Shown in pieces: positions 50,588 through 57,606 of a stretch of 64,000 nucleotides of DNA. The notes under the pieces were generated by a model. That model was not told the DNA's origin, ran no database searches, and was given only the letters and a program-made list of their open reading frames with translations. The stretch spans positions 1 through 64,000 of the forward strand of contig JACQAK010000039.1 of NCBI GenBank assembly GCA_016194985.1, given 5' to 3'. This DNA comes from Bacteroidota bacterium (GTDB taxonomy: Bacteria > Bacteroidota > Bacteroidia > B-17B0 > Aurantibacillaceae). How positions within the stretch are numbered: the first letter of the stretch is position 1; each line of letters opens with the position of its first letter. The translations under genes were made by a program, and so were the position numbers.

Positions 50588-53500
50588 TTAAACCACCATA
50601 TTCACAATTTTCTTGTGAACCACAATTACTTTTTTAGGCTGCTTGCCATCCAGGAATTTGGAGGTTTGTTCGTTGGCCATTACAATCGCCTCTACTTCAG
50701 GAGCGGTTAATGTAGCTGCTAACTCCAGTGTAAATTTAACTTTTCCATTAAAGGATACAGGATAATTCACGCTGTCATCTACTAAATAAGCTTCGTTAAA
50801 ATCAGGGAACGGAGCAGTGGAGATACTTTCAGCATGCCCTAACTGTTTCCATAATTCTTCGGCAATGTGCGGCGCATAAGGCGATAAACAAATCAATAAG
50901 GGCTCAAGAACAGCACGCTTATTACATTTGGCATCCGTTAATTCATTTACGCAGATCATAAAATTACTGATGGAAGTATTGAACGAAAAACGCTCAATGT
51001 CTTCGGTAATTTTTTTAATGGTTTTATGTAAGGTTTTTAATTCACCTTTAGTTGGTTCATCATCACTTACTGCAAATGTTCCTGTACCATAAAACAATTT
51101 CCATAATTTTTTTAAGAAGCCGTGCACGCCTGTAATACCATTAGTATTCCAGGGTTTACTTTGTTCTAAAGGACCTAAGAACATTTCATATAAACGCAAG
51201 GTGTCAGACCCAAATTTTTCTGCAATGTCATCTGGTGTTACAACATTGTATTTTGATTTAGACATTTTTTCTACTTCAGTACCACAGATATAATCTCCGT
51301 TTTCTTCTAGAAGAAAGTGAGCACTTTTGTATTCTTCCCGCCAGTTTTTAAAAGACTCGACATTTAATATATTTCCTTTGGAAACGAGATTTACATCAAC
51401 ATTTATTTGAAATATACTTTCATTAAAAGATAGTTTACCAACCTTGTCAGGATGCAATGCCTGCAATTGTTTAGTAATTATATTTCCAATTTCAGAAATT
51501 TTATCTATAGCCATTTGTCTATCAGCGGTCCATTCTTCTTTATTAAATGAATCAAATAGACTCTTGGACACAAAAACAGGAGGAATCTCTTTTACTGGCA
51601 ATAACTCTTTTTTTGAATCAGGTGAATCTGCTATTGAAGTATGAGAAACACCAAAGGACACTCTAAATGCTTTTGAAGATAATCCCTGTATCATTCCTTG
51701 ATTGATCAACTTCTTAGCCGGTTCATCAATATCAATGTAGCCAAGGTCTTTCAGGAATTTGGTCCAGAAACGTACATACAATAAATGCCCTGTGGCGTGC
51801 TCACTACCACCAATGTATAAGTCGACCTGTTGCCAGTAGTCAGTTAATTTTTTATCCGCAAATACCGAACCATTATGAGGATCCATATAACGTAAAAAAT
51901 ACCAGCTACTGCCTGCCCAACCCGGCATTGTCGAATGTTCATAATCAAACTCTCCTTTGTATTTCCAGGACGAGGACGCACGAGCCAAAGGCGGCTCACC
52001 ATCTTCCGTTGGTAAATATTTATCTACCTCCGGTAATACCAAAGGCAATTCATTTTCTGCCAATACATACGGAATATCATTTTTGTAATACACCGGAATG
52101 GGCTCTCCCCAATAGCGTTGACGGCCAAACACGGCATCGCGCAAACGGAAATTCAATTTCTTTTTTCCTAAACGCTGGATCTCAATTTCCTGCATGGCTA
52201 GTTTCATGGCGTCCTTTACCTGCAAGCCATTCAAAAAATCAGAGTTGATCAAAATACCCTCTTTGGCATCATAGGATTCTTTTTCCAGATCACCGCCTTT
52301 TACCACTTCTATAATCGGTAAGCCAAAGTGTTTGGCAAAACTATAATCTCTGCTATCATGCGCCGGAACAGCCATCACCGCACCTGTGCCGTATCCTGCC
52401 AATACATAGTCGCCAATCCATACCGGAATTTGTTTTCCTGTGAAAGGATGTTCCACATACGAACCGGTGAACACGCCTGTAATTTTAGTCACATCCGCCT
52501 GACGCTCGCGTTCGCTTCTGTTTTTTGCCTGTGTAACATAAGCCTCCACAGCAGCTTTATTTTCTGCAGTGGTTAAGCTTTCTACTAATTCATGTTCAGG
52601 GGCGATGGTTAAAAAGGATACACCGAATATTGTATCAGGACGAGTTGTGAATACTTCAATGTCATGCTGAACTTGTTTCAGCATCTCTTGAGACCCTGAA
52701 ACAAGTTCAGGGTGACGAATTACTTTAAATCTCAATGAAGTTCCTTCACTTTTTCCTATCCAGTTGCGTTGTGCTTCTTTTAAGCTGTCTGTCCAATCCA
52801 ACGTATCCAATCCGTCTAACAATCTTTGTGCGTAAGCGTTAATGCGCATACTCCACTGTTTCATCAGTTTGCGTTCTACGGGATATCCGCCGCGTTCACT
52901 CACGCCGTCTTTCACTTCATCGTTGGCCAACACGGTTCCTAATTGCGGACACCAGTTAACGTAAGCCTCGCCTAAGTAGGCAATACGATAGGCCATTAAA
53001 ATATCGGATTGTTCTTTTTCTGTAAAGGCTTTCCATTGCGCCGCAGTAAAGGATTGCACAGACTCTTCGCAAGCTGCATTTACCTTGCTGTTTCCATTAG
53101 TTTCAAACTCAGAAATCAGTGTTGAAATGGTTTCTGCCTTATCACTGCTTTTGTTGTACCACGAATTAAAGAGTTGTATAAAGATCCACTGGGTCCATTT
53201 GTAATACTCCGGGTTGGAGGTTCTTACTTCTCTGTCCCAGTCAAACGAAAAACCAATTTTATCCAGTTGTCTGCGGTAAACAGCAATGTTGTTTTCGGTG
53301 GTTATTTTAGGATGTTGCCCTGTCTGGATCGCATATTGTTCGGCAGGCAAGCCAAAGCTATCGTAACCCATGGGATGTAATACATTAAAGCCTTTATGGC
53401 GTTTGTAACGGGCTACAATATCAGAAGCAATATATCCTAAAGGATGTCCCACATGTAAACCCGCACCGGATGGATAGGGGAACATATCCAATACGTAGTA

Positions 53501-53596
53501 CTTAGGTTTATCTCCACCGTCTTTGGCGGCAAAGGTTTTATGTTTTGCCCAATATGCCTGCCAATTACTTTCTATCTCTTTAAAATTGTATTCCAT
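50588..53596 (-). CDS. leuS: Leucyl-tRNA synthetase, with an in-frame palindromic repeat insertion and an unusual extra segment
   Basis: [70 protein letters not shown]. Confidence 0.95.
52661..52716. repeat. Palindromic repetitive element within leuS
   Basis: GTCATGCTGAACTTGTTTCAG (52661-52681) and CTGAAACAAGTTCAGGGTGAC (52696-52716) are inverted, 19/21 matching; encodes [19 protein letters not shown] on the leuS strand. Confidence 0.9.
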
Positions 53597-54521: not shown

Positions 54522-55415
54522 CTAATACTTGATTCCGGAAACACCAATGTTTTCAATAGGATGCCAGGTTGTTTTAATTTCCTGCAAGTCGGTAATATAA
54601 TAAGGCCCTTGCTCTTTTTCGTCGCTCCAGTTTTTATTCCAGGTAAACACACGCTTCACATTTAAGGATGCATTTTCGCCAATGGTTTTATTGAAATCCT
54701 TTTCGGCATTACAATTAATAACGGCATTCACATCCATGTGAGAAGAAAAATGAGCGTGTAATTCTTTTCGGTTTCCGGTCACAATATTTACAACACCTCC
54801 GGGAACATCACTGGTAGCAATCACTTCAGCAAAAGTAATAGAACAGGTTGGCTTGCTTTCTGATGCTAACACAATGCAAGTATTTCCTCCGGCAATGCAA
54901 GGTGCAACTACTGATACCAGGCCTAATAAAGCCGTTGATTCATCAGCCAGAATAGCTACTACACCCATTGGTTCCGGTACCGAAAAATTAAAATGCGACG
55001 TTGCCACAGGATTAACCGCACTGAATAATTGCTGATATTTATCGCACCATCCGGCATAATATACTAATCGATCGATACTTTGTTCTACTTCTTTTTTGGC
55101 AGCAGTAGCCGTATAACCTAATTGTTTCAATTCCTCTAAAAACTGTTCTTTGCGTCCTTCCAGCATTTCGGCTATACGGTATAAAATTTGTCCGCGGTTA
55201 AATGCTGCACGGGAACTCCAGCCGCTAAATGCCGCACGGGCTGCAACAACAGAGTTTCTAAAATCTTTTCGGGAAGATAAACTAACGTTTACAGTCATGT
55301 TGTTTTTTAATTTTAAAGGATAATAGCGTCCACTCTCAGTACGGGGGAATTGTCCGCCAATAAATATTTTGTATGTTTTTAAAACTTCTATTCTTTCCAT
55401 AATGTTTAACCGCAA
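54522..55415 (-). CDS. Truncated aldehyde dehydrogenase-family protein without the catalytic domain (pseudo-ALDH); start probably MERIEV at 55400
   Basis: ALDH N-terminal features (YKIFIGGQFPRTESGRYYPL, AARAAFSGWSSRAAFNRGQILYRIAEMLE, PEPMGVVAILADES) but ends at GVSGIKY before any catalytic Cys region. Confidence 0.85.
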   Translation of the reverse strand: MRLNIMERIEVLKTYKIFIGGQFPRTESGRYYPLKLKNNMTVNVSLSSRKDFRNSVVAARAAFSGWSSRAAFNRGQILYRIAEMLEGRKEQFLEELKQLGYTATAAKKEVEQSIDRLVYYAGWCDKYQQLFSAVNPVATSHFNFSVPEPMGVVAILADESTALLGLVSVVAPCIAGGNTCIVLASESKPTCSITFAEVIATSDVPGGVVNIVTGNRKELHAHFSSHMDVNAVINCNAEKDFNKTIGENASLNVKRVFTWNKNWSDEKEQGPYYITDLQEIKTTWHPIENIGVSGIKY

Positions 55416-55542
55416 AGATCGCTGAGTTTTTTTCGCAAAGACCTCAGAGAAAATCTGCTATATTTTAATTGTTACTGGTTATTATTTTTAATCATTATAT
55501 TTTTTGCGTTCTCTGTGTTTTTCTCTCTGCTTCTTAGCGGTT
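55408..55542. repeat. Inverted-repeat element A (left side of GxxExxY gene)
   Basis: Starts AACCGCAAAGATCGCTGAG and ends TTCTTAGCGGTT; internal CGCAAAGACCTCAGAGAA vs TTGCGTTCTCTGTG inverted. Confidence 0.75.
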
Positions 55543-55580
55543 ACTAAACAATTACTTTAACCGCAAAGATCGCCGAGTTT

Positions 55581-55964
55581 TTATAAATTATTTACTACTC
55601 TTTTAATTCCGTCTTTTACTCTAGTCACATTGAAATTAATTAATAATCCCAATTTTACATGACTTAATTTTAAATAAGTTAACACTTGTGCTAAATGCAC
55701 ATCGGTTAGCCCTTCGCATGCCTTTATTTCTATAATTACTTTGTTTTCTACTATTAAATCCAATCTATAACCAACTTCTAATTTTACTTCTTCATATACT
55801 AAGGGCAAAGCTTTTTGCTTCTCAACTTTTAATCCTTCTTTAATCAACTCATAATACAAACACTCTTCATATGCAGACTCTAATAATCCTGGGCCTAATG
55901 CAGTGTGAACTTTTATAGCACATCCAATTATTATTTGCGACAAATCGTTCTCAATCATATTCAC
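55581..55964 (-). CDS. GxxExxY protein (PD-(D/E)XK nuclease-like superfamily)
   Basis: GCAIKVHTALGPGLLESAYEECLYYEL; ...GYRLDLIVENKVIIEIKACEGLTDVHLAQVLTYLKLSHVKLGLLINFN. Confidence 0.93.
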   Translation of the reverse strand: MNMIENDLSQIIIGCAIKVHTALGPGLLESAYEECLYYELIKEGLKVEKQKALPLVYEEVKLEVGYRLDLIVENKVIIEIKACEGLTDVHLAQVLTYLKLSHVKLGLLINFNVTRVKDGIKRVVNNL

Positions 55965-55970
55965 TTATTT

Positions 55971-56092
55971 AACCGCAAAGACCGCTGAGATTTTTCGCAG
56001 AGGTCGCAAAACAGTTATGTTACTATTCTCTTTTGTATTATTTAACCTTCCTCTTGCGTTCTTTGCGTTTTTCCCTCTGTCTCTTTGCGGTT
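55971..56092. repeat. Inverted-repeat element C (right side of GxxExxY gene)
   Basis: Starts AACCGCAAAGACCGCTGAGATTTTTCGCAGAGGTCGCAAAA; ends TTGCGTTCTTTGCGTTTTTCCCTCTGTCTCTTTGCGGTT; a further direct copy AACCGCAAAGATCGCCGAGTTTTT begins at 55559. Confidence 0.75.
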
Positions 56093-56097
56093 AAACC

Positions 56098-57606
56098 TTA
56101 AAACTTCAAATAAGGCATTAAACCATGCAATCCGCCTTCACGGCCAAATCCACTTTCTTTATAGCCTCCAAACGGAGATGTTGGATCGAACTTATTATAG
56201 GTATTAGCCCAAACCACCCCGGCACGCAATTTAGAAGTCATATTAAAAATACGGGAGCCTTTATCGGTCCATACGCCGGCACTTAAACCATAAGGAATAT
56301 TGTTGGCTTTTTCAATCACCTCTTCAATGGTTCTGAATGTTTGAACCGCTAATACGGGTCCAAAAATTTCTTCCTGAGAAATGCGGTGTGATTGAGAGGT
56401 GTTTAAAAATAAGGTTGGGCGAACAAAGAATCCTTTTTTAGGAATAGAGCAAGAGCTTTGATACATCTCAGCTCCATCGTTTACCCCAATTTTTAAATAC
56501 TCATTGATTTTATTCAATTGCATTTTAGAATTGATAGCACCGATGTCTGTATTTTTATCTAAAGGATCACCAACAATTAACGTTTCTAATCGGTCTTTTA
56601 ATTTGCGGATCACTTCATCGGCAACGCTTTCCTGAACAAATAAACGGGATCCTGCACAACATACATGTCCCTGATTAAAGAAGATACCATTTACAATTCC
56701 TTCTACAGCCTGATTAATGGGAGCATCTTCAAAAATAATGTTAGCTGCTTTTCCACCTAACTCAAGCGTTAATTTTTTATCTGTTCCGGCAATGGCTTTC
56801 TGGATCCATTTACCAACGTTTGTGCTGCCGGTAAAGGCTATTTTATTAATGTCTTTGTGATTCACCATAGAAGCACCAACCGGGCCATGGCCTGTAATGA
56901 TATTAACAACACCATCCGGCAATCCGCTTTCCTGAATAATTTCGGCAAGCTTCAATGCGGTTAAAGAGGTGGTTTCAGCTGGCTTCAATACAACCGTATT
57001 TCCTGTGGCCAAAGCCGGCGCAATTTTCCAGGCAGCCATGAGTAATGGAAAATTCCATGGGATCACTTGCCCTGCAACGCCTAAGGATTTTGGATGACGG
57101 TTAGGAAACGCATATTCTAATTTATCGGCCCAGCCGGCATAATAGAAAAAGTGATTGGCTGCTAAAGGCACATCAATATCACGGCTTTCACGAATGGATT
57201 TTCCACCATCCATGGTTTCAATAACAGATAGTTCACGGGCTCGCTCCTGAATTAAACGCGCTATACGGTAAATGTATTTAGCACGTTCTTTCGCCGGCAT
57301 TTTGCTCCATGTTTTATCATAGGCACCACGAGCTGCTTTCACAGCAGTATCTACATCTTTATCATTAGCCTCTGCAATGCTCGAAATTTTTTCTTCGGTA
57401 GCAGGATTAATAGTATCGAAATATTTACCTGAATTTGGTTTTACAAATTTACCATTGATAAACAACTCATATTGTTTTTGTAAACGGATATGATCGGTTG
57501 CTTCCGGTGACGGCGCATATTTCCAATCGGTAAAGTATTCTAATTTTTTAGCTTCTTTTTTTGCCATTTTTTGTTTTGTTTTTGAACGCAAAAGATTAAT
57601 ATTCAA
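56098..57606 (-). CDS. Aldehyde dehydrogenase family protein (catalytic)
   Basis: VIPWNFPLLMAAWKIAPALATGNTVVLKPAE, ELGGKAANIIFEDA, NQGHVCCAGSRL, QEEIFGPVLAVQTF. Confidence 0.93.
   Translation of the reverse strand: MNINLLRSKTKQKMAKKEAKKLEYFTDWKYAPSPEATDHIRLQKQYELFINGKFVKPNSGKYFDTINPATEEKISSIAEANDKDVDTAVKAARGAYDKTWSKMPAKERAKYIYRIARLIQERARELSVIETMDGGKSIRESRDIDVPLAANHFFYYAGWADKLEYAFPNRHPKSLGVAGQVIPWNFPLLMAAWKIAPALATGNTVVLKPAETTSLTALKLAEIIQESGLPDGVVNIITGHGPVGASMVNHKDINKIAFTGSTNVGKWIQKAIAGTDKKLTLELGGKAANIIFEDAPINQAVEGIVNGIFFNQGHVCCAGSRLFVQESVADEVIRKLKDRLETLIVGDPLDKNTDIGAINSKMQLNKINEYLKIGVNDGAEMYQSSCSIPKKGFFVRPTLFLNTSQSHRISQEEIFGPVLAVQTFRTIEEVIEKANNIPYGLSAGVWTDKGSRIFNMTSKLRAGVVWANTYNKFDPTSPFGGYKESGFGREGGLHGLMPYLKF

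Follow-up and report, generated by a model that had tools for sequence, protein, structure and literature searches.

A candidate two-part genetic element in Bacteroidota: GxxExxY genes and their flanking heptamer arrays

In a 64-kb stretch of Bacteroidota DNA, analyzed as a whole and called the window below, a small GxxExxY gene is enclosed by repeats between two ALDH genes. Comparison of its homologs and their flanking sequences supports the view that the gene and its repeats evolve as a single unit. This suggests that enzyme and repeats constitute an undescribed two-part genetic element, which is probably mobile. On balance, we favor assigning the block to a two-part selfish repeat/enzyme system that resembles REP-RAYT and is built on a PD-(D/E)XK nuclease. 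The GxxExxY family is already known by name, from its motif only. A literature search, made mostly without subscription journals and preprints, returned no function for GxxExxY; as far as the matches show, neither the two papers that name GxxExxY nor the one that names PF13366 is about repeats. A search for the repeat words gave no relevant match among the matches listed, and we found no paper describing the association of gene and repeats.

Table 1. Features of the inserted block and of its neighbors (positions in the 64-kb window)
Feature	Position	Strand	Remarks
Whole inserted block, TTTAACCGC...GCGGTTAAA	55405..56095	.	Between two ALDH genes; several congeners are without the block
GxxExxY gene	55581..55964	-	127 aa from GTG; ATG at 55958 possible
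Repeat element A, upstream of the GxxExxY gene	55971..56092	.	122-bp inverted CRCNRAK array pair (AACCGCAAAG...CTTTGCGGTT)
Single arm, directly 3' of the GxxExxY stop codon	55559..55578	.	AACCGCAAAGATCGCCGAGT on the + strand; in inverted orientation to element A's distal arm
Repeat element B, distal downstream	55408..55542	.	135-bp inverted pair, same heptamer class as element A
Downstream ALDH-family gene	54522..55400	-	Host operon; true start 55400
Upstream ALDH gene	56098..57606	-	Host operon

The block described by the first-pass annotation, a GxxExxY ORF within inverted repeats between two ALDH genes, is present at these positions (table 1). Read on the coding strand, the first ALDH gene is followed by the 122-bp inverted pair (56092-55971), the GxxExxY gene, the single arm (55578-55559), the 135-bp inverted pair (55542-55408), and the second ALDH gene. 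The outer inverted arms (55400-55418 and 56082-56100) are 19 nt long and 95% complementary. Three direct copies of TTTAACCGCAAAGA(T/C)CGC(T/C)GAG start at 55405, 55556, and 55968. With at most one mismatch, the core word AACCGCAAAGA occurs nine times in the window against 1.1 expected, a number reached in none of 100 shuffles, and six of the nine copies fall inside the block. The doubled heptamer CRCNRAKNNCRCNRAK is found three times in the 64 kb (0.19 expected), each time in the block. As single-stranded DNA, the element at 55971-56092 is predicted to fold strongly (z -4.0) and that at 55408-55542 weakly (z -1.6). The same annotation had the left repeat overlap the 5' end of an ORF. The overlap with the ALDH ORF is an artefact, because the TTG start at 55415 is a mechanical call and aligned relatives conserve an ATG at 55400. 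No transposase gene was found in the block, Rfam returned nothing relevant, and comparison with phages gave no match; PADLOC reported a single weak Cas4-like match. Elsewhere in the window (50588-53596), a leuS-like ORF contains an in-frame stretch of 19 residues (letters not shown), which resembles the repeat-derived coding insertions of other bacteria.

The product of ORF 55581-55964(-) is a clear member of the GxxExxY family, matching PF13366 (E 6e-44, 149.6 bits) and TIGR04256 (E 9e-46, 155 bits) above the curated cut-off. The motif G26-x-x-E29-x-x-Y32 is invariant. The putative active site consists of E29, D69, and E79-x-K81, each at least 99% conserved (D69 100%, E79 99%, K81 99%). The predicted structure (pLDDT 93.5) has the alpha-beta fold of a PD-(D/E)XK core with D...ExK. 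Its nearest folds according to Foldseek are Cas4 SSO0001 (4ic1) and lambda exonuclease, at an E value of only 2e-3. For close pairs, dN/dS lies mostly at 0.01-0.13 and reaches 0.42 in a single pair; the gene is under purifying selection. Taken together, the protein is maintained and is probably an active PD-(D/E)XK nuclease. The gene was detected in 120 of 248 sampled Bacteroidota genomes (48%), with up to 10 copies per genome. PF13366 is reportedly called "transposase-like" in Pfam's own note.

We analyzed the flanks of GxxExxY genes in two sets of loci, the relatives of the window protein and a phylum-wide set added later. Inverted similarity between the two flanks exceeded all 20 shuffles at 76 of 104 loci in the first set and at 98 of 127 in the independent second set, where the shuffles are the main control because only 4 control ORFs were available. 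The repeat unit is a degenerate heptamer, CRCNRAK, represented by CGCAAAG, CACAGAG, CACGGAT, CGCAGAT, and others. Over 260 bp of flank at 233 loci, it occurs 1000 times in the expected sense, versus 77 in shuffles. Sense-to-antisense ratios of 470:193 upstream and 530:167 downstream indicate inverted arrays. Within these, heptamers mostly start 8-12 bp apart, with peaks at 9 and 10. The arrays are characteristic of GxxExxY genes: these loci carry 4.29 units on average, versus 0.15 for Y1_Tnp, 0.17 for IVP, and 0.23 for DUF559 genes with comparable flanks in the same or closely related genomes, and at least three units are present at 175 of 233 GxxExxY loci versus 0 of 63 Y1_Tnp/IVP/DUF559 loci. 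CRCNRAK arrays also flank GxxExxY genes in Gemmatirosa and on Bacteroides plasmids, and weaker traces were seen in Treponema, Fusobacteria, and Sphingomonas. In Sphingomonas parapaucimobilis, fabD is separated from fabG, and the fab operon thereby interrupted, by a GxxExxY gene (L484, 1471-1899). Within co-directional gene pairs, 175 GxxExxY genes lie in sense and 8 in antisense orientation, a striking bias that can be explained if the unit has no promoter of its own and lives on read-through. A special preference of the units for operons was not retained: co-directional neighbors on both sides were found at 175 of 210 GxxExxY loci and, nearly as often, at 58 of 78 control ORFs.

The heptamer variant follows the protein rather than the insertion site or the host, as seen from the protein tree, from nearest neighbors, and from paralogs. 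The left and right arrays of one locus agree at heptamer positions 2, 5, and 7 (r 0.88, 0.88, and 0.94); at the degenerate position 4 the correlation is 0.41. For the tree, one locus was kept per site family, the 175 loci representing 103 unrelated sites. Positions 2, 7, and 5 change 14, 8, and 13 times on it, lower than in all 500 shuffles (means 29.1, 20.1, and 32.9). The nearest protein found at another site and in another genome shares the variant triplet in 46% of cases, versus 13% at random. Conversely, only 5% of paralog pairs from the same genome share their heptamer type, versus 12% of pairs between genomes.

At heptamer position 2, G in the CGC type and A in the CAC type, the variant also covaries with the C-terminal tail of the protein. 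Residue 127 is reached by all 79 CGC-type proteins, typically ending in ...VNNL, versus 21 of 66 CAC-type proteins; the other 45 end before it, typically in ...KRVIL. Both sets show a significant association of the tail with this position (P 3e-7 and 2e-14, values that ignore relatedness). Residue 127 differs in 92% of the closest pairs of opposite type, versus 16% of distance-matched pairs of the same type. As the tail-coding end of the gene lies next to the downstream array, physical linkage could contribute to this covariation; the upstream array changes as much as the downstream one. Links between Q10 and position 5 and between H20 and position 7 were lost on correction for 127 columns.

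We compared the ALDH-ALDH spacer across the genus and the family. It is empty (12-15 bp) in four congeners (G003, G009, G017, and G034), thus providing the empty sites that the first-pass annotation had proposed to look for. G000, G008, and G015 have a GxxExxY gene with repeats in it, as do more distant Bacteroidota (L036, L042, and L060). In G018, both repeat ends surround the last ~30 bp of the gene; this copy is an internally deleted GxxExxY element. One repeat end is left in G011. In G010 and G001, the spacer is occupied instead by a DUF559 nuclease gene that inverted repeats of the CCCCTCTTT type enclose, and in G002, G005, G007, G012, and G013 by other small repeat elements. These varied contents imply that the GxxExxY gene is not fixed at this locus and mark the spacer as a hot spot. 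Among congeners (L163-L175), different species of the one genus have, between them, about five distinct repeat elements there.

Inverted pairs with no gene between them occur away from GxxExxY genes. The genome of the window contains four, 97-123 bp long, at other places. Fourteen of the 15 pairs listed for the genus lie between co-directional genes; one of the 15, in G008, is the array beside a GxxExxY gene and no true solo element. When the flanks of solo elements are joined across them, they match uninterrupted spacers of relatives. In a scan of 396 genomes of the phylum, gene-less pairs of 90-120 bp were detected in 11 genomes, whereas a reversed control pattern was detected in no genome. 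Each of the 11 has a GxxExxY gene, versus the base rate of 120 in 248, and the four genomes of the genus that are devoid of the gene have no gene-less pairs; the repeats are thus not distributed independently of the gene. Where both neighbors are known, the pairs of the phylum occupy 18 co-directional, 10 convergent, and 1 divergent spacers, a placement resembling that of REP sequences. Solos are few, up to 13 per genome under the strict pattern. G003 has seven, yet its two GxxExxY matches belong to other heptamer classes, in an assembly that is 76% complete. In L415/L434 (G275:C12:5029-5381), a GxxExxY gene is directly adjoined by three gene-less elements in tandem, spaced about 110-130 bp. 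Both of the orthologous solos L202 and L201 contain in their interior a ACAAATATAATT-like core, possibly a Bacteroidota promoter read from the opposite strand.

Target-site duplications, another mark of insertion considered at the outset, did not hold up. The first 42 elements gave a 6-bp duplication signal at register 12 (z 4.2), and an earlier held-out set contained only 6 usable elements. In a prespecified test of 34 new solo elements, the observed value was 1.47 for 1.62 expected (p 0.84). As the register-12 signal was not replicated in held-out elements, the 6-bp duplication was dropped. Alignments of filled and empty sites did not fix the element ends, because the spacers are short and A-rich.

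The most economical reading of these data is a mechanism in which the enzyme recognizes the arrays and acts on the gene-less pairs in trans. A small sequence-specific GxxExxY nuclease would recognize iterated heptamers (here CGCAAAG/CGCTGAG) in inverted arrays flanking its own gene. Gene and arrays would move as a unit of ~440-640 bp into intergenic spacers, mainly inside operons and in the sense direction, where the inserted unit would be expressed by read-through. Cleavage followed by host repair would copy the unit, and recognition of the arrays beside its own gene would spread or maintain them. The gene-less pairs (~90-130 bp) would be nonautonomous derivatives. The C-terminal tail would partly set the specificity, and paralogs of the same genome would thereby diverge to different heptamers. 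DNA binding, cleavage, and movement are steps that we infer for the protein. The first-pass annotation had suggested a self-contained mobile or repeat-processing unit whose nuclease acts on its own repeats. Its view of a single gene/repeat unit agrees with the empty sites in congeners and with the gene-less copies elsewhere, and self-contained mobility would be possible; action of the nuclease on the repeats, by putative cleavage, is favored by the covariation of heptamer and protein. Against mobility, several sites, among them the ALDH spacer and a spacer that precedes a cyclase-like gene in Flavobacterium, are filled in many species, and much of the inheritance may therefore be vertical.

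The main rivals to this reading are an immobile regulatory role of the arrays and an intron-less homing element. In the former, which we regard as unlikely, the arrays would be DNA operators or RNA processing hairpins controlling the read-through expression of an autoregulated GxxExxY gene, and the solos would be decayed remnants. The arrays do lie tight on both sides of the ORF, their 8-12 bp spacing would suit a protein array, one element forms a strong predicted hairpin, and co-inheritance at one site is seen for many loci. Even arrays that were mere operators of the gene would produce the linkage between heptamer class and protein lineage. An immobile operator nevertheless fits poorly with unrelated sites as numerous as those on the protein tree, with heptamer class tracking the protein across them, or with the deletion derivative at one site; solo pairs at many sites with empty counterparts in relatives speak against it too, and copies elsewhere would be superfluous for an operator. 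Homing, to which we give a low probability, would have the nuclease cut allelic sites free of the unit, which would then be copied by repair from the filled homolog, the arrays being target half-sites or by-products. Homing enzymes of the PD-(D/E)XK type exist, the same operon spacers are recurrently occupied in different genera, and no target duplication was found. However, the sequence that a homing enzyme recognizes would need to be in host genes, yet it is the array that covaries with the protein, and solo arrays at nonhomologous sites are left unexplained.

It is very improbable, in our judgment, that GxxExxY is passive cargo, trapped in a MITE-like repeat family that is moved by an unrelated transposase. 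The TIR-like ends (TTTAACC...GGTTAAA), the MITE size of the solos, and the similar operon-spacer architecture of IVP and DUF559 genes, with other repeats, agree with this scenario. It is opposed by the covariation of heptamer class with GxxExxY residues, by the restriction of solos to genomes with the gene in the 396-genome scan, and by the lack of heptamer arrays at IVP and DUF559 genes and at Y1_Tnp genes, the one transposase type tested in the genomes. A Y1 transposase was rejected as the mobilizer since its genes have no heptamer arrays in the repeat-carrying genomes, and IVP genes were rejected as carriers of the GxxExxY repeat since their loci have repeats of their own.

Among known systems, the closest parallel to the selfish repeat/enzyme reading is the REPtron, or REPIN-RAYT, in which the gene of the TnpA-REP enzyme is flanked by its own repeats, which are also scattered as inverted pairs some 100 bp long, and in which each paralog of a genome has its own repeat class and coevolves with it (PMC3116915, PMC8266576). 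Similarly, GxxExxY genes are flanked by cognate repeats that are also dispersed as inverted pairs, and paralogs of the same genome have distinct repeat classes. The GxxExxY system is not a REPtron, since its enzyme is a PD-(D/E)XK protein (PF13366) and not a Y1-HuH transposase. Moreover, its repeats form inverted blocks, each an array of direct heptamers, instead of single REP hairpins, and the gene itself is multicopy and travels with its arrays. Cas4-like and lambda-exonuclease-type nucleases are nearest in predicted fold, but GxxExxY is much smaller and has no Cas context. Like MITEs and ISs, the family has inverted ends, gene-bearing and gene-less copies, and an internally deleted copy; unlike them, it showed no target duplication that held up, and no transposase was found in the block.

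The intervening sequence of 23S rRNA genes is likewise a small selfish unit of ~430 nt, with one small ORF, IVP (S23), between terminal inverted repeats (PMC4990558). The GxxExxY unit shares this plan of one small ORF between inverted repeats but differs in its location in a protein operon, in its unrelated protein (PF13366 and not PF05635), and in its repeats. IVP genes of the genus (L132-L161, PF05635, four-helix bundle) are also located in operon spacers, enclosed by inverted iterated repeats of their own, with units such as AAAGTTT, GATTAGGCAATAG, and AAAGATT; their inverted flanks exceed all shuffles at 13 of 30 loci. Small DUF559 nuclease genes (L168, L173, and L213-L226) are flanked by inverted CCTCCTTTGAAGGAGG or CCCTCTTTGAAGAGGG repeats, and one type of them sits in the same ALDH spacer in two species.

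It is possible, though doubtful, that GxxExxY units are minimal autonomous mobile elements of ~440-640 bp in which a PD-(D/E)XK nuclease of ~125 aa takes the place of the transposase and uses its C-terminal tail, in part, to read a modular heptamer code. Under this doubtful reading, the units may form a branch of a broader class of operon-spacer elements with one gene each, to which IVP and DUF559 genes and their respective iterated repeats would also belong. A predicted cognate DNA site for GxxExxY is now available to test, together with a natural specificity series (CGC, CAC, ...GAT, and CACATAG) and, in the C-terminal tail, a candidate specificity element. Should the GxxExxY nuclease spread its unit, the system would resemble transposition while operating without any known transposase, and it would account for a widespread class of operon-spacer repeats as well.
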